In this document: positions 4,380-29,713 of the stretch, piece after piece
How positions within the stretch are numbered: the stretch's first letter is position 1
How the letters are laid out: each line of letters begins with the position of its first letter
Assembly: GCA_019310535.1 (NCBI GenBank)
Contig: JAFDED010000007.1
Span: forward strand, 1-64,000
Reading direction: 5' to 3'
DNA length: 64,000 nt
Origin: Deltaproteobacteria bacterium
GTDB lineage: Bacteria > Desulfobacterota > JAFDED01
Notes under the pieces: generated by a model
Told to the model about the DNA's origin: nothing
Seen by the model: only the letters and a program-made list of their open reading frames with translations
Databases searched by the model: none
Translations under genes and position numbers: made by a program

Positions 4380-6146
4380 TTACCATTCCCCTGCGGCATT
4401 AAATTGCATTTTACAAAGCCGTAGGTATGGTCCATCCCTCTGGATCAATTCATCGTGTTTGCCCACATCTTGAATACGCCCGTTTTCCAGCACCACGATT
4501 TTGTCTGCGTTGACAATGGTGGATAGCCTATGGGCAATGACATATGTTGTGCGATTTTTCATGAGGTTCACCAGAGCCTTTTGGACCATATGCTCTGATT
4601 CGCTATCAAGCTCCGACGTCGCCTCATCCAGAATGAGAATCTCGGGATCGCGCAAAATCGCCCGCGCAATGCATATGCGTTGTCGCTGGCCACCGCTCAA
4701 TCGTACTCCTCGCTCCCCGATAATGGTCTCGTAGCCCTGGGGGATCTGCATGATGAATTCGTGGGCATAGGCCGCCTCTGCTGCGGCCCGAATCTCCTCC
4801 TGCGTCGCTCCGGGTTTACCGTACGCTATGTTGAAAGCAAGCGTATCGTTGAAAAGGATCGTTTCCTGGGTAACAATGCCGAACTTCCGACGCAAGGAGT
4901 TGATCTGAAACCGGCGAACATCCACCCCGTCGATCTCGATGCTCCCTTCGGACACATCGAAGAATCTGGGCATAAGGTCTCCCAGTGTGGTCTTGCCTGC
5001 CCCGCTATGGCCGACGATGGCCACGATCTCACCCCGTTCAACCTCTAGGTTGATCTCTCTGAGCACCATATCCGGGCTGTTATCGTACATAAACGACACG
5101 TTTCGAAAACGGATTCCGTGCTGAAGCGATCGGAACTGTTTGGCGTCGGGTGCATCCACGATTTCCGGTTTCTCTTCAAGAATCTCAAAAATCCTCTCGG
5201 CCGCCGCCATAGCTGCCATGATAAGGTTGTTGAGGCGGCTCAGCCGGCGAACTGGACCATAGAGCATCATGGTTGCGGCGATAAAAGAGAAAAATGTTCC
5301 CGGCGTCGTCATGCCGGTAATTACCTGACGGCCTCCATACCAGATTACCGCGGCAATTCCAATGGCACCGAGAAATTCCATCAATGGACTTAACACTTCC
5401 TCAGCCCGTACTCCCTTCATGCGAACGTCAAAGAGTTTCTTGTTCTGTTTGCTGAATTTCTCCTGCTCGCACTCCTCGCTGCCAAAGGCCTTAACGATCT
5501 TGATTCCGGTGAAGGTCTCTTGAAGGATCCTGGTCAACTCAGCGGTCATCTCCTGAATGGACTTGTTCAATCTCCTGATCTTGCGGCCGATGCGAATCAT
5601 GGGGAAATAACCCATGGGAAGCACTACCATAGCGATGGAGGCCAGGAACCAATCGCGGTAAAACGCGATGAAGATCAAGCCCAGAATGGTGAAGACCTGG
5701 CGAATAACGTCGGCAATCACACTGGATGTAACGCTTGATAGCCGGGAGACGTCGTTGATCGACCTGGATATCAACTGCGCCGAGGGGATACGGTGAAAAA
5801 AGCTCAATGACAGCCGATTCAAGTGGGCAAAAAGATCATCACGAATTTTCTGCACTACCCGATATCCCACATACTGGATCAAGTAAGATTGCCCATACGT
5901 TGCGATTCCTTTAATCAGGTATATTGCAAGAATCATGACGGGCAACAGCGTCAACATCAGCAGGTCTTTTTTTAAGAAAATATCATCCAGAACCGGCTTG
6001 ACCAGCCACGCCGTGAGAGCGTTTGTTATGGAAACCACCACTGCTAAGAATATGGCACTCGCCAGTCTGAAGCGATAAGGACGGACGTACTCAATCAATC
6101 TCCGAATTATTCGAATATCAACTTTGCTGAACCATTGGAATTTCAT
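4380..6146 (-). CDS. msbA: MsbA-type lipid A-core flippase, ABC transporter half-molecule
   Basis: 588 residues: six transmembrane helices in roughly the first 320 residues, then an ATP-binding cassette. Visible motifs are Walker A GHSGAGKTT, signature LSGGQRQR, Walker B ILILDEATSELD and the switch histidine in YVIAHRLSTI. Homodimers of this family flip lipid A-core across the inner membrane. Placement inside an LPS core cluster supports MsbA over a generic drug exporter. It lies 24 bases downstream of a glycosyltransferase gene, likely the same transcript. Confidence 0.88.
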   Translation of the reverse strand: MKFQWFSKVDIRIIRRLIEYVRPYRFRLASAIFLAVVVSITNALTAWLVKPVLDDIFLKKDLLMLTLLPVMILAIYLIKGIATYGQSYLIQYVGYRVVQKIRDDLFAHLNRLSLSFFHRIPSAQLISRSINDVSRLSSVTSSVIADVIRQVFTILGLIFIAFYRDWFLASIAMVVLPMGYFPMIRIGRKIRRLNKSIQEMTAELTRILQETFTGIKIVKAFGSEECEQEKFSKQNKKLFDVRMKGVRAEEVLSPLMEFLGAIGIAAVIWYGGRQVITGMTTPGTFFSFIAATMMLYGPVRRLSRLNNLIMAAMAAAERIFEILEEKPEIVDAPDAKQFRSLQHGIRFRNVSFMYDNSPDMVLREINLEVERGEIVAIVGHSGAGKTTLGDLMPRFFDVSEGSIEIDGVDVRRFQINSLRRKFGIVTQETILFNDTLAFNIAYGKPGATQEEIRAAAEAAYAHEFIMQIPQGYETIIGERGVRLSGGQRQRICIARAILRDPEILILDEATSELDSESEHMVQKALVNLMKNRTTYVIAHRLSTIVNADKIVVLENGRIQDVGKHDELIQRDGPYLRLCKMQFNAAGEW

Positions 6147-19468: not shown

Positions 19469-20658
19469 AGCACGACCTTGCTGAATGAAGCACTGCTTCT
19501 CTGGTCACCGCCTTTGCTCATTATAAATTCGTGCGCCAGCCGGGCTACCCTGAAGGATGCTCCGGGTTCCCCGAGCTTATTCTTAATTTTGAGAAATTCC
19601 TGGCGAATCCAGGACAACCTGTCCGGGTCATCAAGGATTGCCAGTGCTTCTTGAACGATCCGATCCGGCCTCATCTGCCACTGGATCAATTCGGGCACAA
19701 CTTGTTTTTCGGCGACGATATTCACCAAGCCGATATTTTTAATGGATACCAGAAGGCGACCAAGGAGATAGGTTAATAGAGAGGTACGATAAACAATCAC
19801 CATGGGAATTCCCAGCATAGCGGCCTCAAGTGTTGCCGTTCCGGATGCCACTACAAGAAAGTCCGACGCGTGGATGATATCATAATAGTGTTCCTTGAAA
19901 ACTTTAACAGTTACGTCAAATTTGTCCAGGATATTATGGAGGTTAGCTTCGTCGCACGTAGGGGCCAAGGGCAGGATAAACTGAAACCGGCCCTCCTTGT
20001 GAGACAGGATACGGGCGGCCTCCAGCATTTTAGGCAGCATCGATTTGATCTCGCTGTCCCTGCTCCCGGGAAGAAGGCCGATAGTAGTCTTTTCACGATC
20101 CAGATTGAACTGCTTTGCGGCTTCCTGCCGGCTCAGCACAGGACGGACCAAGTCGATCAGGGGGTGGCCTATGAACTTCACCTGGACATTCTCTTTATAG
20201 TAGAAAGGAACTTCGAATGGAAAAATCACCGCCATACAATCCACCAGTCGAGCTATTTGCTTGACCCGCCCCTTTCGCCATGCCCAAATCTGGGGGCTGA
20301 TATAATAAAGAACGGGAATCCGCATTTTTTTTGCCACTCTCGCGAGCCTGAGGTTAAAAAAAGGATAATCGATAAGGATCAAAAGATCGAAACGAATCGT
20401 CTCCAAGGCTCGTTTGAGGCGGCGATACGTACGAATAATGCCGGGCAATTTCTCCAGCACTTCCGTGAATCCAACTACGGCCATTTCCGAGGCATCGAAC
20501 ATAACTCCGGGACACACAGCGCGAATTCGAGCGCCGCCAACCCCACTTATGCGAACACGAGGATTAAGCTGAAGCAGTGCTCTCAGGAGATCAGCTCCAT
20601 GCATGTCTCCGGAGGCCTCACCGGCCACGATCATGATTTGCGGGGATTGATTATTCAC
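19465..20658 (-). CDS. lpxB: lipid-A-disaccharide synthase
   Basis: 397 residues, GT19 family. It has IVAGEASGDMHGADLLRAL at the start, ISPQIWAWRKGRV in the middle, LLPGSRDSEI, and VASGTATLEAAMLGIPMVIVYR in the UDP-binding half. It condenses UDP-2,3-diacylglucosamine with lipid X. It overlaps both neighbours (waaA and the Gfo/Idh oxidoreductase) by four bases, so it is translationally coupled on each side. Confidence 0.94.
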   Translation of the reverse strand: MNNQSPQIMIVAGEASGDMHGADLLRALLQLNPRVRISGVGGARIRAVCPGVMFDASEMAVVGFTEVLEKLPGIIRTYRRLKRALETIRFDLLILIDYPFFNLRLARVAKKMRIPVLYYISPQIWAWRKGRVKQIARLVDCMAVIFPFEVPFYYKENVQVKFIGHPLIDLVRPVLSRQEAAKQFNLDREKTTIGLLPGSRDSEIKSMLPKMLEAARILSHKEGRFQFILPLAPTCDEANLHNILDKFDVTVKVFKEHYYDIIHASDFLVVASGTATLEAAMLGIPMVIVYRTSLLTYLLGRLLVSIKNIGLVNIVAEKQVVPELIQWQMRPDRIVQEALAILDDPDRLSWIRQEFLKIKNKLGEPGASFRVARLAHEFIMSKGGDQRSSASFSKVVL

Positions 20659-24509: not shown

Positions 24510-25043
24510 TCACCGCTTGGTCTTACGATAATATGCGTTATAGCGCCTGATCAGTTCATCGGTAATATCAATGGCTTCCGGGGAATAGATAATGACGCTC
24601 TTGTCCTTGTGGACTATGAGGGTATACCCTCCTTTTTTCCCGATATTTTTGACAATACGTTCAAGTTCTCGCAAAATGGGATTCCGGAGGTCCTTCTCGC
24701 GCAATTTCATCTCTTCCACAAAGTCATTGTACTTTCTCTTAAACTCCCTGCTTTTAAAAGCAAGTTCTCGTTTTTTTTCTTTCAGGACATCAGGGCTAAG
24801 CATAGTTGATTGTTTTTCCAGCGTTTCCCGAAGGTGTTTTATTTCATTTCTCTGCTCAATCAGGATTTTCTCTTTGTCTTTAAACAATTTCTCCAGTTCG
24901 AGCTTGGCGTCCTTACCTGCTTCGCACTGATCAAGCGCTTTCTGAAAGTCTATCACCCCTATCCGGACGCTTTCAAGTCCCTGTGCGGGAACGGAAAAGA
25001 CAGTCAGAAACAGGATCAAGAATGGCAAGGCCAAACGTTTCAT
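24510..25043 (-). CDS. skp: OmpH/Skp-family periplasmic chaperone
   Basis: 177 residues: a Sec signal peptide (MKRLALPFLILFLTVFSVPAQG), then VRIGVIDFQKALDQCEAGK, a long charged helical region (about residues 40-125) that forms the Skp tentacles, and a closing beta strand (GYTLIVHKDKSVIIYSPEAIDIT). It holds unfolded outer-membrane proteins for BamA, whose gene is 48 bases upstream. Confidence 0.88.
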   Translation of the reverse strand: MKRLALPFLILFLTVFSVPAQGLESVRIGVIDFQKALDQCEAGKDAKLELEKLFKDKEKILIEQRNEIKHLRETLEKQSTMLSPDVLKEKKRELAFKSREFKRKYNDFVEEMKLREKDLRNPILRELERIVKNIGKKGGYTLIVHKDKSVIIYSPEAIDITDELIRRYNAYYRKTKR

Positions 25044-25091: not shown

Positions 25092-27794
25092 TTAAAATGT
25101 CGCCCCGATGCTGAACTCAAAATTTTGTTTTTCCTCTCCTGGCAATGGGTCCAGAACGCGCCCCCAAAAGAGTTTTATCAAACCAATAGGGGATAGCCAT
25201 CGTATTCCTGCACCAGCACTTGCTCTCAATTCCCCGAAATTTTCAAAGTTATCATAGGCATTGCCTACATCCAGGAACGTGAGAAAATAGAGATTCGCCT
25301 TTGGGATGAGAGGGAATATCCATTCCAGATTGAAGACCACCTCTAAATCACCTCCGATGGTGTCACCGGTGGCGGGATCCTTTGGACCCACTTCGAATGC
25401 CTCAAACCCACGCAACGTATTGATGCCGCCAATACGAAACAGCTCAAAAACCGGAACCTCTTTACCGTTGTATCCTTGGGCGTATCCAAACAGACCGCGC
25501 AAATGTATGGAACCTGCGAAGGGAAGTCGGTAGTAGAAGCTGTGATCCAGGATATACTTGACAAAGAAGAAGTCTCCACCGATTCCGGCAAGTTCTACGG
25601 AAAGATCCGTGAGCATCCCCTCCAGGGGAATAAAGATATTGTCCCGCTTATCGCGATTCACTCCAACGGTAATACTGCTGGTTATGCCGGAATCAAAATT
25701 TTCTCCGAACAATCTCATTAAAGTTTCTTCAAAACTTGGGTTGATATCTAACAACTCGGTCTCCTCGTACCTGTAAATCCCGCGGAACCGCACATCCTCT
25801 GCAATTGGATAGCTGGCTAAAAGAGAGCCGCCCTTCCCTTTTTTTGTATAATTTTCAAATTCTCTTTCCTCATTAAAGAGGCTGACCCCAAGTTTCATTT
25901 GAGTATCTAAGAAATATGGCTCGATAAAGCTTAAACGAATATTTTGACGCTTGCCGCTAATTTCACCCTTTAAAGAAATGGTCCACCCGTATCCCATGAA
26001 ATTTCTTTCTGCAATTTCCCCCAGTCCTATAATGTTATCCACCGAGCTGTAGCCGGCCCCGATGCTGAAAAATCCCGTGCTCTTTTCCTCCACGTATACA
26101 CCCAGGCGAAGCTTGTCGGGTGTGGATCCTTTTTCTTTCTTTATGTCAACCTTTTTGAAGTAACCTGTATTATTCAGTCTCCGTATGCTTTTTTTTATCG
26201 GTGTGGATTTATACAGTTGGCCCTCCTGAAGCAGCAATTCCCGACGAATGACTTTATCTCGTGTGCGGGTATTCCCTCTGATTACTATTTCCTCCACGGT
26301 TACCTTTTTGCCCTTATTGATAGTCAACGATAGATCCACTCTGCGATGTTTTACATCGAATTGGGTGTCCACATCCGCGTCGGCAAATGCAAAACCCTCA
26401 TTCGCGTAAAATTCTTTAATCCGTTCAATCTCTTCCCTTACCTTGATCCTATTAAAAATATCACCGCTGCCCAGCAAGGAATCTTTCATCACATCGCTGA
26501 CAGGACCGATCAGATCGCCCTGAATACGAATGTTTCCAACGAAAAATTGAGGACCTTCATCTATGGTAATAGTAATAACGAGGTGGTCTTTCTTTACTTT
26601 GACTTCGGGTTCTCCCACACGGTGCCGTGCAAATCCTTGCATCGCATAAAAATGGCTGATTCGAGAGATGTCATCACGTACTTGTTCTTTCTTGTAAGTG
26701 CCCGAACCTGTAATCCACCAAAAAAACCCTTTTTCTTTTGTCTTCATGACCTTTTTGAGGTCGGAATCCGATACGCTTTTATTCCCTTGAAACAGAATCT
26801 TGGTGATGAAAAGCCTGGGGTTCTCCTTTATTTGAAGAATGAGCCGAACCCAGTTTTCTTCTTTTTCGATGGGTTCAACCTTAGGTTCAATCTGGACGTG
26901 GTAGTATCCTTTATCTGTATAGAGGGTTTGAATTTTACGGATATCTTCATTCAGAGTAGTTTCATCAAATATCTCATGTGTCTTGAGTTTTATGACGGTC
27001 TCGATATCCTTGGTATCAATGTTCTCATTTCCTTTAATCACAAGAGTCTTTATGGTGGGCTTCTCTTTTACCACAATAACCAGGGAGATACCATCAGGGA
27101 CCGGGATTTGTTGGACGACGATATCTTTAAAAAAGCCCATCTTATACATTGAGCGAATATCTTCCTGGATGGTGGCGATGGAAAGGGGACGCCCCACTTT
27201 GCTCTTAATTTTTCCGAGGATTGCATCGGCATCTATGCGTTTGTTCCCCTGGATACGTATATCCCTGATTATTTTCCGGGGGATGATCCGGGCGATCAAA
27301 GCTTCAACTACTTCGTCAAGCCTTGCGATAAGATCGTCTGGATTTTTCCCGGTGAAAGAGTATCTCTCCACGGGAACATCTCTTGCCATCTCCAACAATT
27401 GCAAATCGAGGCTTATGCGCTGACCGAATTGGGAAATGCTTCCCCACAGGACATAATCTGCTCCTGTTTCCTTGCCTATTGCACGAATATCCGTTAATGT
27501 GAGCGAAGGTTTTTTTGCCTTGGGCACACGTGCGGCCGTACTGGCGGGACTGACGATTTCTATGTCTTTTTGTGCAGCCAGCAGCGATGCGATAATATCT
27601 TCAACGACCCGAACCAGGGATTTGGTCGCTTCAATCCCATACACCTTCAATGGGACAAAAGTTATTCTGGGAGCCTTGGCGTGAGCCTTGCCTCCCATCA
27701 CCAATACCCATCCCATAAGGATAAACAAAAATATTTTATTAATGATCTTCAATCCGGGTTCGTTCAAACGATCAGACCGCTTCCAGTTGGCCAT
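25092..27794 (-). CDS. bamA: outer-membrane protein assembly factor BamA with an added N-terminal domain
   Basis: 900 residues. After a signal peptide ending near GGKAHA, residues about 42-165 form a TolB-N/FlgO-like alpha/beta domain (ITFVPLKVYGIEATKSL, ETGADYVLWGSISQFG). Five POTRA repeats follow, starting near RKIIRDIRIQGNKRID, then the Omp85 barrel with FRIGGINTLRGFE (the RGF motif) and a C-terminal Phe (FSIGATF). The usual proteobacterial BamA lacks the first domain and is about 800 residues. The start at 27794 overlaps lolD by 23 bases; a TTG at 27752 is the alternative. Confidence 0.9.
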   Translation of the reverse strand: MANWKRSDRLNEPGLKIINKIFLFILMGWVLVMGGKAHAKAPRITFVPLKVYGIEATKSLVRVVEDIIASLLAAQKDIEIVSPASTAARVPKAKKPSLTLTDIRAIGKETGADYVLWGSISQFGQRISLDLQLLEMARDVPVERYSFTGKNPDDLIARLDEVVEALIARIIPRKIIRDIRIQGNKRIDADAILGKIKSKVGRPLSIATIQEDIRSMYKMGFFKDIVVQQIPVPDGISLVIVVKEKPTIKTLVIKGNENIDTKDIETVIKLKTHEIFDETTLNEDIRKIQTLYTDKGYYHVQIEPKVEPIEKEENWVRLILQIKENPRLFITKILFQGNKSVSDSDLKKVMKTKEKGFFWWITGSGTYKKEQVRDDISRISHFYAMQGFARHRVGEPEVKVKKDHLVITITIDEGPQFFVGNIRIQGDLIGPVSDVMKDSLLGSGDIFNRIKVREEIERIKEFYANEGFAFADADVDTQFDVKHRRVDLSLTINKGKKVTVEEIVIRGNTRTRDKVIRRELLLQEGQLYKSTPIKKSIRRLNNTGYFKKVDIKKEKGSTPDKLRLGVYVEEKSTGFFSIGAGYSSVDNIIGLGEIAERNFMGYGWTISLKGEISGKRQNIRLSFIEPYFLDTQMKLGVSLFNEEREFENYTKKGKGGSLLASYPIAEDVRFRGIYRYEETELLDINPSFEETLMRLFGENFDSGITSSITVGVNRDKRDNIFIPLEGMLTDLSVELAGIGGDFFFVKYILDHSFYYRLPFAGSIHLRGLFGYAQGYNGKEVPVFELFRIGGINTLRGFEAFEVGPKDPATGDTIGGDLEVVFNLEWIFPLIPKANLYFLTFLDVGNAYDNFENFGELRASAGAGIRWLSPIGLIKLFWGRVLDPLPGEEKQNFEFSIGATF

Positions 27795-28482
27795 CCGCCA
27801 AATTGTACAGGTATTTCATCCGGGCTGCAAGACGCTGTTTATGAGTCACCAGAATAATGGTTACGCCCCTGCGTTCGTTCATACGAACAAGCAACCCCTC
27901 GATCCCCTCGCCCGTGTTCTGATCCAGGTTTCCTGTGGGTTCATCAGCCAATAAAATTTCCGGCTCCAGTACCAGTGCCCTGGCAACAGCCACGCGCTGT
28001 TGCTCCCCTCCCGACAGTTCTCCGGGTTTATGCGTTATTCGATCGGCCAGTCCGACATCATTCAAAATCTGGCTGGCCGCTTGAGCGGCGTTTTTTTTTC
28101 GATGGCCCCGAATCAACATGGGCATCATGACATTCTCTAATGCATTAAACTCGGGAAGCAGATGATGGAATTGGAATACAAAACCGATGTTGCGATTGCG
28201 AAAATCGGCTAGACTTCGCTCGTTCTGCGCAAACAGGTCCTCTCCGCGATAAAGCACTTGGCCTTCAGTGGGCGGCTCCAGTGTTCCCAGTATTTGCAAT
28301 AATGTGCTCTTTCCTGCTCCCGATTCACCCATTATAGCGATGGTATCTCCCTGGTAAACATCCAAACTCAGTCCCTGAAGCACACGCAGTTCCCTTTCTC
28401 CGTTTCGAAAAAATTTATACAAGCTGACCACACGAATCAAGGGCCCCCAGCTCTGCTTGTTGTCCCATCGAGCTTCATTCAT
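27772..28482 (-). CDS. lolD: lipoprotein-releasing ABC transporter ATP-binding subunit
   Basis: 236 residues from the ATG at 28482, which overlaps the lolC stop by 8 bases; an in-frame ATG at 28545 lies inside lolC. Walker A GESGAGKST, signature LSGGEQQR and Walker B ILLADEPTGNLD are present. With LolC/E it extracts lipoproteins from the inner membrane. Position directly downstream of lolC and upstream of bamA supports LolD over other MacB-type ATPases. Confidence 0.9.
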   Translation of the reverse strand: MNEARWDNKQSWGPLIRVVSLYKFFRNGERELRVLQGLSLDVYQGDTIAIMGESGAGKSTLLQILGTLEPPTEGQVLYRGEDLFAQNERSLADFRNRNIGFVFQFHHLLPEFNALENVMMPMLIRGHRKKNAAQAASQILNDVGLADRITHKPGELSGGEQQRVAVARALVLEPEILLADEPTGNLDQNTGEGIEGLLVRMNERRGVTIILVTHKQRLAARMKYLYNLADGQLEAV

Positions 28483-29713
28483 ACCGAAGTGCTTCCGCCG
28501 GTTGGAGTTTTGACGCATGCCATGATGGATAAATAGTGGCCGCAAAACTTATGACGATGGCGGACGCCGCCACCACCAAAAAATCGAATATGTCGGGCTT
28601 CACGGGTAAATAACTCAATGGATAAACATCTCTGGGGAGCGGGAAAGGATATCTGGCCAGCAGCAAGCAAAGCCCGTATCCTCCCATGATACCCAGGGCT
28701 GTCCCCATCACCCCCACTACAACGCCCTCTATAATGAAAATATTGAGGATTTTTCGGGCGGTAGCTCCCATCGATTTCAAAATTGCGATATCTCGGGTCT
28801 TCTCCATGACTACCATCGTCAGTGTGCCTATAATGTTGAAAGCCGCCACCATAATAATGAGTGCCAGAAGGATGAACATCATGATTTTCTCTAACTTAAG
28901 GGCGGAAAAGAGATTTTTGTTCATCTGCATCCAGTCCTTGGTCCAATAGGGAAATCCCAACTCCCGCGCAACGCGCTGGGAAACTTCATCGGCTTGATAG
29001 ATATCTTGAACCCGGACCTCGATACCTGTAACTCGATCGGGCATATCAAAAAAATCTTGCGCTGCTCTCAGATCGAGAAACACCAGGGTGGAATCGTATT
29101 CATACATCCCCGACTCAAAGACCCCCGTTACCTTGAATTTCCGCATTCTGGGGACCATGCCTACCGGCGTCATCACCCCGGTGGGGGAAATCATATTTAT
29201 TTCGTCCCCCCTTGAAACCCCCAGCAAGTTTTCCAGTTCTCTTCCTATGATCATGCCTTCAGGAGAATCAACGCCCGCCGGCCCCTCAGGGGAGTGCAAT
29301 TCATCCAGGGTCCCCTCCTTCAAGTTTATTTCCAGGTTCACGACTCTGGACGCCGTTTCAGGATCGATGCCGCGAACCACCACACCGGTGGCGGCCCTGT
29401 CCGTCGATAGCATAGCTTGGCCCAAAACGAAAGGGGTGGCTGCCACCACTCCTTCCACTGTCTCCACCCGCCTGGTAATTGTTTGGTATTCCCGAATTCC
29501 ACCACTCCCATCAAGTACTAAAACATGAGAGGTAATGCCCAGGATCTTGTTCCGAATATCTTCCTGGAAGCCGTTCATGACTGCCAGCACGGTCACCAAT
29601 GCCATCACGCCCACCATCACACCAACTATGGAAATGACACTGATAATGGATATGAATGTCTGCTTTCGCTTGGCTCTCAGGTAGCGGAGGCCTATGAATA
29701 ATTCAAATCGCAT
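28475..29713 (-). CDS. lolC: lipoprotein-releasing ABC transporter permease (LolC/LolE)
   Basis: 412 residues from the ATG at 29713 (MRFELFIGLRYLRAKRKQ); an earlier in-frame ATG at 29791 adds 26 unlike residues. One N-terminal membrane helix, a periplasmic domain of about 220 residues, then three C-terminal helices (FNIIGTLTMVVMEKTRDIAILKSMG is the coupling region), the type VII ABC layout. Only one permease gene is present, so it probably forms a LolCD homodimer-type complex, as in bacteria with a single LolF-like gene. Confidence 0.88.
   Translation of the reverse strand: MRFELFIGLRYLRAKRKQTFISIISVISIVGVMVGVMALVTVLAVMNGFQEDIRNKILGITSHVLVLDGSGGIREYQTITRRVETVEGVVAATPFVLGQAMLSTDRAATGVVVRGIDPETASRVVNLEINLKEGTLDELHSPEGPAGVDSPEGMIIGRELENLLGVSRGDEINMISPTGVMTPVGMVPRMRKFKVTGVFESGMYEYDSTLVFLDLRAAQDFFDMPDRVTGIEVRVQDIYQADEVSQRVARELGFPYWTKDWMQMNKNLFSALKLEKIMMFILLALIIMVAAFNIIGTLTMVVMEKTRDIAILKSMGATARKILNIFIIEGVVVGVMGTALGIMGGYGLCLLLARYPFPLPRDVYPLSYLPVKPDIFDFLVVAASAIVISFAATIYPSWHASKLQPAEALRYE

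Follow-up and report, generated by a model that had tools for sequence, protein, structure and literature searches.

The five-POTRA BamA is a classical protein, and the superfamily of alpha/beta domains that includes TolB-N, FlgO, LpoB and CsgG is well known. TolB joins its TolB-N domain to a propeller, LpoB binds peptidoglycan or a peptidoglycan synthase, and elsewhere the relatives of the domain described here likewise bind, or assemble with, proteins of the envelope. Heinz and Lithgow (2014, PMC4104836) present Omp85 subfamilies, among them WD40-Omp85, whose N-terminal domains are not POTRAs, the added module being a beta-propeller that resembles the propeller of TolB. In E. coli, SurA touches POTRA1 of BamA (PMC9177699). 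For the delta- and epsilon-proteobacterial BAM, Anwari et al. (2012, PMC3359395) report that BamB, BamC and BamE are not evident, and propose that other proteins may have evolved for these roles. Here, in a window of 64,000 nucleotides from a Deltaproteobacteria bacterium of the Desulfobacterota related to known sulfate reducers (contig JAFDED010000007.1), we characterized a full five-POTRA BamA which, unlike these Omp85 proteins, carries what reads as the other domain of TolB. No description of a TolB-N-type domain on BamA was found in the literature searched by title or abstract start; a 2026 Chem Rev article on BAM (PMC13067283) contains no mention of TolB, deltaproteobacteria, an accessory domain or an N-terminal extension, the terms desulfo and myxococc being likewise absent from it, and the combination is, as far as searched, not described.

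The original prediction of a BamA with an extra N-terminal domain before five POTRAs was borne out down to the exact limits of the gene, an open frame of 900 aa whose coordinates include the stop codon (Table 1). TIGR03303, the model for BamA, scores 678.8 bits over residues 174-900 (cut-off 297.15), Pfam recognizes five PF07244 (POTRA) stretches and a C-terminal Omp85 barrel, and the protein is the sole match to itself when the draft genome is searched. Its signal peptide, read by eye in the translation, is devoid of a lipobox cysteine. The E. coli-type BamA (TIGR03303) shares with it the five POTRAs, the Omp85 barrel and a gene followed by skp, lpxD and lpxA (the bamA-skp-lpxD order being also present in E. 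coli), but is devoid of the 133-residue TolB-N-type domain that precedes POTRA1 in the window BamA. That a standard BamA begins at POTRA1 holds for E. coli K-12, whose BamA is unmatched by the profile of the extra domain and whose signal peptide runs directly into POTRA1. The stretch of extra residues initially proposed also stands, its length being ~133 aa (~residues 40-172) rather than ~125.

The neighbourhood of the window bamA is an ordinary envelope cluster, with lolC/E and lolD upstream and skp/ompH, lpxD, lpxA, lpxI, a Gfo/Idh-type oxidoreductase, lpxB and a Kdo transferase downstream, lolD and the Kdo transferase being named from best matches that are both below their cut-offs. Between positions 20655 and 25043, where the lpxD-lpxA-lpxI-oxidoreductase-lpxB succession lies, fabZ is absent between lpxD and lpxA. 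The best match of the oxidoreductase is a UDP-GlcNAc 3-dehydrogenase model (202 bits, below the cut-off of 450), and the presence of such an enzyme in an lpx cluster could point to a 2,3-diamino lipid A.

Table 1. Coordinates, within the window, of bamA, of the segments of its product and of the adjacent genes.
Feature	Coordinates	Strand	Evidence
bamA: signal peptide, TolB-N-type domain (predicted), five POTRAs, Omp85 barrel	25092..27794	-	TIGR03303
Signal peptide, ~residues 1-39, ends ...GGKAHA	27678..27794	-	by eye; presumed cleavage site
TolB-N-type alpha/beta domain (predicted), ~residues 40-172	27279..27677	-	AlphaFold2, TolB Z 12.9, hhalign 97.2%
Most conserved stretch, residues 111-135, GADYVLWGSISQFGQRISLDLQLLE: beta-hairpin (predicted) and preceding residues	27390..27464	-	alignments
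POTRA1, ~residues 174-245	27060..27275	-	TIGR03303 start 174; solved BamA structures align from 175
POTRA2-5, ~residues 246-570, approximate boundaries	26085..27059	-	Pfam PF07244
Omp85 beta-barrel, residues 598-900	25095..26003	-	PF01103 196.9 bits
lolD, 3' end overlapping bamA start	27772..28545	-	TIGR02211 282.6 bits, best match, below cut-off 307.75
skp/ompH, downstream of bamA	24510..25043	-	PF03938 103.9 bits

Between the signal peptide and POTRA1, no family of the Pfam and NCBI models exceeds its cut-off; PF04052 (TolB_N) leaves the window protein unmatched at E <= 1 in Pfam, and DUF3280 reaches 15.6-17.8 bits, under its cut-off of 30.1. Weak Pfam matches (E <= 0.1) were obtained among 24 homologues of the domain, for DUF3280 (13 homologues), TolB_N (8), FlgO (6), LpoB (6), FlgT_M (3) and CsgG (2). 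An AlphaFold2 model, produced from the window domain and 11 natural homologues (7 from BamAs and 4 from FG-GAP-type proteins), predicts a folded alpha/beta domain with a pLDDT of 85.3 and a pTM of 0.80, its last residues being poor: the pLDDT is already dropping where helix 3 comes to its end, at model residue 133 (residue ~170). In this model, strands 77-86 and 89-98 form a predicted hairpin that corresponds to residues 114-135, and the motif ETGADYVLWGSISQFG quoted in the original prediction is located at residues 109-124. Foldseek placed TolB at the top of its matches (E 7.5e-7), followed by GNA1162, PelC, LpoB and FlgT, and alignment of the model to solved chains with VIA-align gave a Z of 12.9 for TolB (124 of 141 residues, rmsd 2.9 A), then 12.2 for FlgT, 10.5 for PelC, 9.5 for LpoB and 8.8 for CsgG. 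Profile-profile comparison by hhalign of 39 BamA domains with the TolB-N domains of the same phylum (15 genomes) scored 97.2% (E 4e-11, 94 columns). From these predicted-fold matches and profile-profile scores, it is strongly supported that the extra domain is a real and conserved alpha/beta domain, related to TolB-N and not to the POTRAs; the TolB-N/FlgO-like fold first proposed is thereby upheld by the fold search, the profile-profile comparison and the weak Pfam matches. Its location ahead of POTRA1 is where a sixth, divergent POTRA would stand, a reading that we regard as vanishingly improbable, the hhalign scores of the domain against POTRA1-5 (0.2-0.7%) being set against 97.8% for POTRA1 with POTRA2 and 92.3% for POTRA1 with POTRA3 as positive controls, and the fold matches of the model being of TolB type; the region is thus predicted neither as a sixth POTRA nor as unstructured. 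With regard to the N-terminal domain of TolB (PF04052), the likeness in predicted fold and profile is accompanied by differences, as the window domain has no TolA-binding arm, is not followed by a propeller and scores below the Pfam cut-off. TolB itself was rejected as an identity for the whole protein, in which POTRAs and a barrel, and no six-bladed propeller, follow the N-terminal domain. When the PDB was searched by sequence with the profile of the domain, LpoB was found at E 0.098; the designed TIM barrels at the top of this search (E 8e-4) were taken as chance matches.

The occurrence of the domain was surveyed in 59 genomes of the phylum, all of which (own genome included) gave a match to the whole protein. 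Six of them were not classified, namely G004, G009 and G041 (no full BamA found), G011 (fragment), and G027 and G028 (domain unsure). In the 53 classifiable BamAs, the domain was present in 28, from 21 families, and absent from 25, from 21 other families, with no mixed family among the 42 classified. The extra domain belongs to many BamAs of the Desulfobacterota. It is carried, among others, by Desulfatibacillum alkenivorans DSM 16219 and by a Candidatus Zymogenaceae bacterium; the BamA of D. alkenivorans has a score identical to that of G035, from which the sampled relatives are assigned to the Thermodesulfobacteriota/Desulfobacterota. The window domain by itself matches the same place in the BamAs of relatives (e.g. 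L002, 46.6 bits), and a profile (A1) built on 24 of the 30 available domains detects it in BamAs of genomes outside the profile (e.g. G292, 150 bits, whose protein was confirmed as a BamA). When the set was widened to 394 genomes, 339 of them were matched by the domain profile, whether in BamA, in FG-GAP proteins or in others; the weak matches may be other members of the superfamily. A second contig scan with the whole protein yielded 11 loci, 8 with BamAs and 3 with FG-GAP-type proteins. An insertion lies between the domain and POTRA1 in L010 and L019. In the BamA of L075 (G027, family f28), POTRA1 is preceded by a region as long as the domain but unmatched by its profile, perhaps a degenerate remnant.

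On the tree of BamA bodies (fragment L080 left out), six changes are needed to account for the distribution of the domain, only one of them being forced by well supported branches. In a tree of 68 domains, from which hits below 50 bits (L028, L033) and duplicate loci (L003, L020, L031, L032) were left out, the grouping of the 34 BamA copies as a single clade, separate from the FG-GAP copies, was not rejected (p-AU 0.705) and had a likelihood above that of the free tree. The simplest and most likely history is a single fusion, early in the phylum, followed by losses in several lineages.

The domain is real and constrained, yet fast-evolving. Its omega ranged from 0.24 to 0.56 in five close pairs, and in 8 of 13 pairs no other segment compared has a lower identity, one of these cases being a tie. 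Because it is found by profile in relatives, evolves at such omega values and has a predicted fold with a pLDDT of 85, it is more than a chance extension. That the domain serves as a spacer or helps in folding, has no specific partner and persists for historical reasons is a reading that we consider unlikely: it would fit with an identity below that of POTRA5 in all 13 pairs, with the absence of the domain from 21 of the 42 classified families and with the L075 BamA, where a region of suitable length has lost its match to the profile, but it is opposed by the purifying selection, by the retention of the domain over 21 families and by the conservation of the hairpin motif.

A first search revealed that the domain also matches, in many genomes, a separate open frame of ~490-660 aa. 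These proteins carry the same N-terminal domain followed by FG-GAP repeats, with PF13517 in 27 of the 34 proteins scanned (E <= 0.001), the 34 including some shorter frames of other kinds. The own genome encodes one of them (549 aa, L091:5110-6756, minus strand of G000:C163, with the domain at G000:C163:48324-48668), whose N-terminal domain exceeds the Pfam TolB_N cut-off (25.8 vs 22.4 bits), together with a true TolB on another contig (G000:C105, 376 bits, over the family cut-off). The hhalign score between the BamA and FG-GAP domain sets was 100%; the L091 protein bears a sister N-domain, but one followed by FG-GAP repeats in a TolB-like layout and not by POTRAs and a barrel. With FG-GAP proteins scored by hand as frames of at least 490 aa and at least 59 bits, and not confirmed by Pfam genome by genome (L039, counted as such, matches no Pfam family), they occur in 18 of the 28 genomes with the BamA domain vs 4 of the 25 without it (Fisher p 0.0006), a co-occurrence that amounts to one phylogenetically independent pair on supported branches. 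By these criteria, an FG-GAP protein is missing from ten of the genomes with the BamA domain.

The neighbours of the FG-GAP gene were considered for 24 of the 34 proteins. Directly downstream, on the same strand, a gene family of 461-504 aa was present at 6 of these loci (L048, L049, L050, L083, L094 and L099). The four members read (L048, L050, L094, L099) start with a signal peptide and end in a barrel-like F, the four scanned (L048, L049, L094, L099) gave no Pfam match at E 0.001, and these proteins are putative outer-membrane barrels. The domain type was also observed in one frame with LptA/LptD_N (L088:3665-4948 in G033, PF03968, 73.8 bits), a link to LPS transport, and with TPR repeats in two genomes (L082:2310-3557, where the TPRs are below Pfam cut-offs, and L089:4482-5825); in one genome, two domain-bearing proteins stand in tandem (L099:2599-4296 and 4385-6079).

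Coevolution of the BamA and FG-GAP domains, which looked strong in a first sample, was not retained. Distance correlations between both domains initially gave a partial r of 0.63 (16 genomes) and 0.67 (15 genomes), the comparison r in the 15-genome sample being flat for TolB-N (0.14) and BamD (0.13) and reaching 0.41 for the TolB propeller and 0.46 for the FG-GAP body. In 23 new genomes, some of the same families, the partial r was 0.24 (p 0.013), or 0.10 by ranks (p 0.17), and in 12 new genomes with one per family it was -0.09 (p 0.73). The 39 genomes together gave 0.49, and 19 genomes with one per family gave 0.45 (p 0.0015), a value that fell to 0.25 (p 0.08) when the divergent G000, G036 and G053 were removed. 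We do not claim coevolution, since neither the fresh families nor the set without these three genomes bore it out. That the TolB-N-type domain at the tip of BamA pairs with the like domain of the FG-GAP protein, which would replace BamB and feed porins to the barrel, is in our opinion quite unlikely.

The original prediction also suggested that the domain could recruit periplasmic partners in place of missing Bam lipoproteins, a suggestion that is retained in part. In the own genome (a draft ~95% complete), profile searches gave no match to BamB and BamE; BamD, by contrast, is present (197.5 bits). Over the 59 genomes, BamD exceeds its cut-off in 58, BamE matches in 8, and BamB exceeds its cut-off in none, with weaker matches in 18; this scarcity of BamB and BamE agrees with Anwari et al. 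(2012, PMC3359395). Genomes with and without the domain differ little in this respect: BamE is found in 4 of 28 vs 4 of 25, BamB-like matches of at least 100 bits in 3 of 28 vs 4 of 25, and those down to E 0.001 in 6 of 28 vs 10 of 25, the BamB-like matches being a little more frequent in non-carriers. Possession of the domain thus bears no clear relation to the absence of the lipoproteins, which non-carriers mostly lack too; this absence belongs for the most part to the phylum at large and cannot alone account for the domain.

We consider partner docking the likeliest role, because the domain sits at the end that SurA contacts in E. coli and because its relatives bind envelope proteins or assemble with them. 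In this reading, to which we attribute an evenly balanced probability, the TolB-N-type domain that enlarges the sole BamA found, most likely fused once, would act as a docking module for a periplasmic partner. As only a few residues separate the domain (helix end at ~170) from POTRA1 (174), it would lengthen the periplasmic arm of BamA as an almost linker-free extension of the end at which SurA, in E. coli, meets POTRA1 close to BamB. The partner docked there could be an OMP-carrying chaperone of the SurA type or an FG-GAP propeller protein with its sister domain, and the domain may thereby dock helper proteins that are attached otherwise in other bacteria. The own genome has SurA_N_3 matches of 185.9 bits, in a 652-aa frame that by its size may be PpiD rather than SurA, and of 62.5 bits for the next one. 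We counted for docking the fold and homology of the domain, its conserved place before POTRA1 (28 of 53 BamAs, 21 families), its possible single clade, its omega values, the sister copy on FG-GAP proteins with the gene family that follows them, and the presence of Skp and BamD in the own genome, where BamB and BamE are undetected; we counted against it the absence of the domain from half of the classified families, its lowest identity in 8 of the 13 pairs, the single independent pair behind the FG-GAP co-occurrence, the ten carriers lacking an FG-GAP protein, the distance correlations in new genomes and the distribution of BamE.

Two other roles are suggested by the relatives of the domain. 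Coupling of BamA to the Tol-Pal system or to the inner membrane, in the way that TolB is coupled to TolA by its N-terminal part, would agree with TolB being the best structural match and with the true TolB of the own genome, and is nevertheless decidedly improbable. In mature TolB, the stretch that binds TolA consists of the first 12 residues (PMC7391070). By eye, the BamA domains begin strand 1 ~3-9 residues past the presumed cleavage site, whereas such an arm (e.g. KVYIDIxSPSFRKFP) precedes strand 1 in the TolBs of the phylum, as seen in the 10 of 15 rows, the own genome among them, whose N-terminus was shown by a crude pattern; with the TolA-binding arm missing, a link to TolA by the means of TolB itself is unlikely. 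Furthermore, G006 and G043 (family f7) carry the BamA domain and gave no TolB match. These two genomes are also without an FG-GAP protein by the domain profile. Binding of peptidoglycan or of a peptidoglycan synthase, as by LpoB, which would tie OMP insertion to wall growth, was given a similarly slim probability: LpoB appears in the fold matches and in the weak Pfam matches (6 of 24), but well under TolB in the ranking, and membership of the superfamily is silent on the partner.

Whichever partner it may have, the domain at the tip of BamA, for which there is no dedicated annotation, is conserved in half of the classified families, and it shows that a five-POTRA BamA tolerates the addition of a module at its N-terminus. 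Together with its sister copy on a propeller protein, it would offer a concrete candidate for the question of substitute proteins raised by Anwari et al. (2012, PMC3359395). If the pairing with the FG-GAP protein were true, many members of the phylum would run a BAM machine of a different build.
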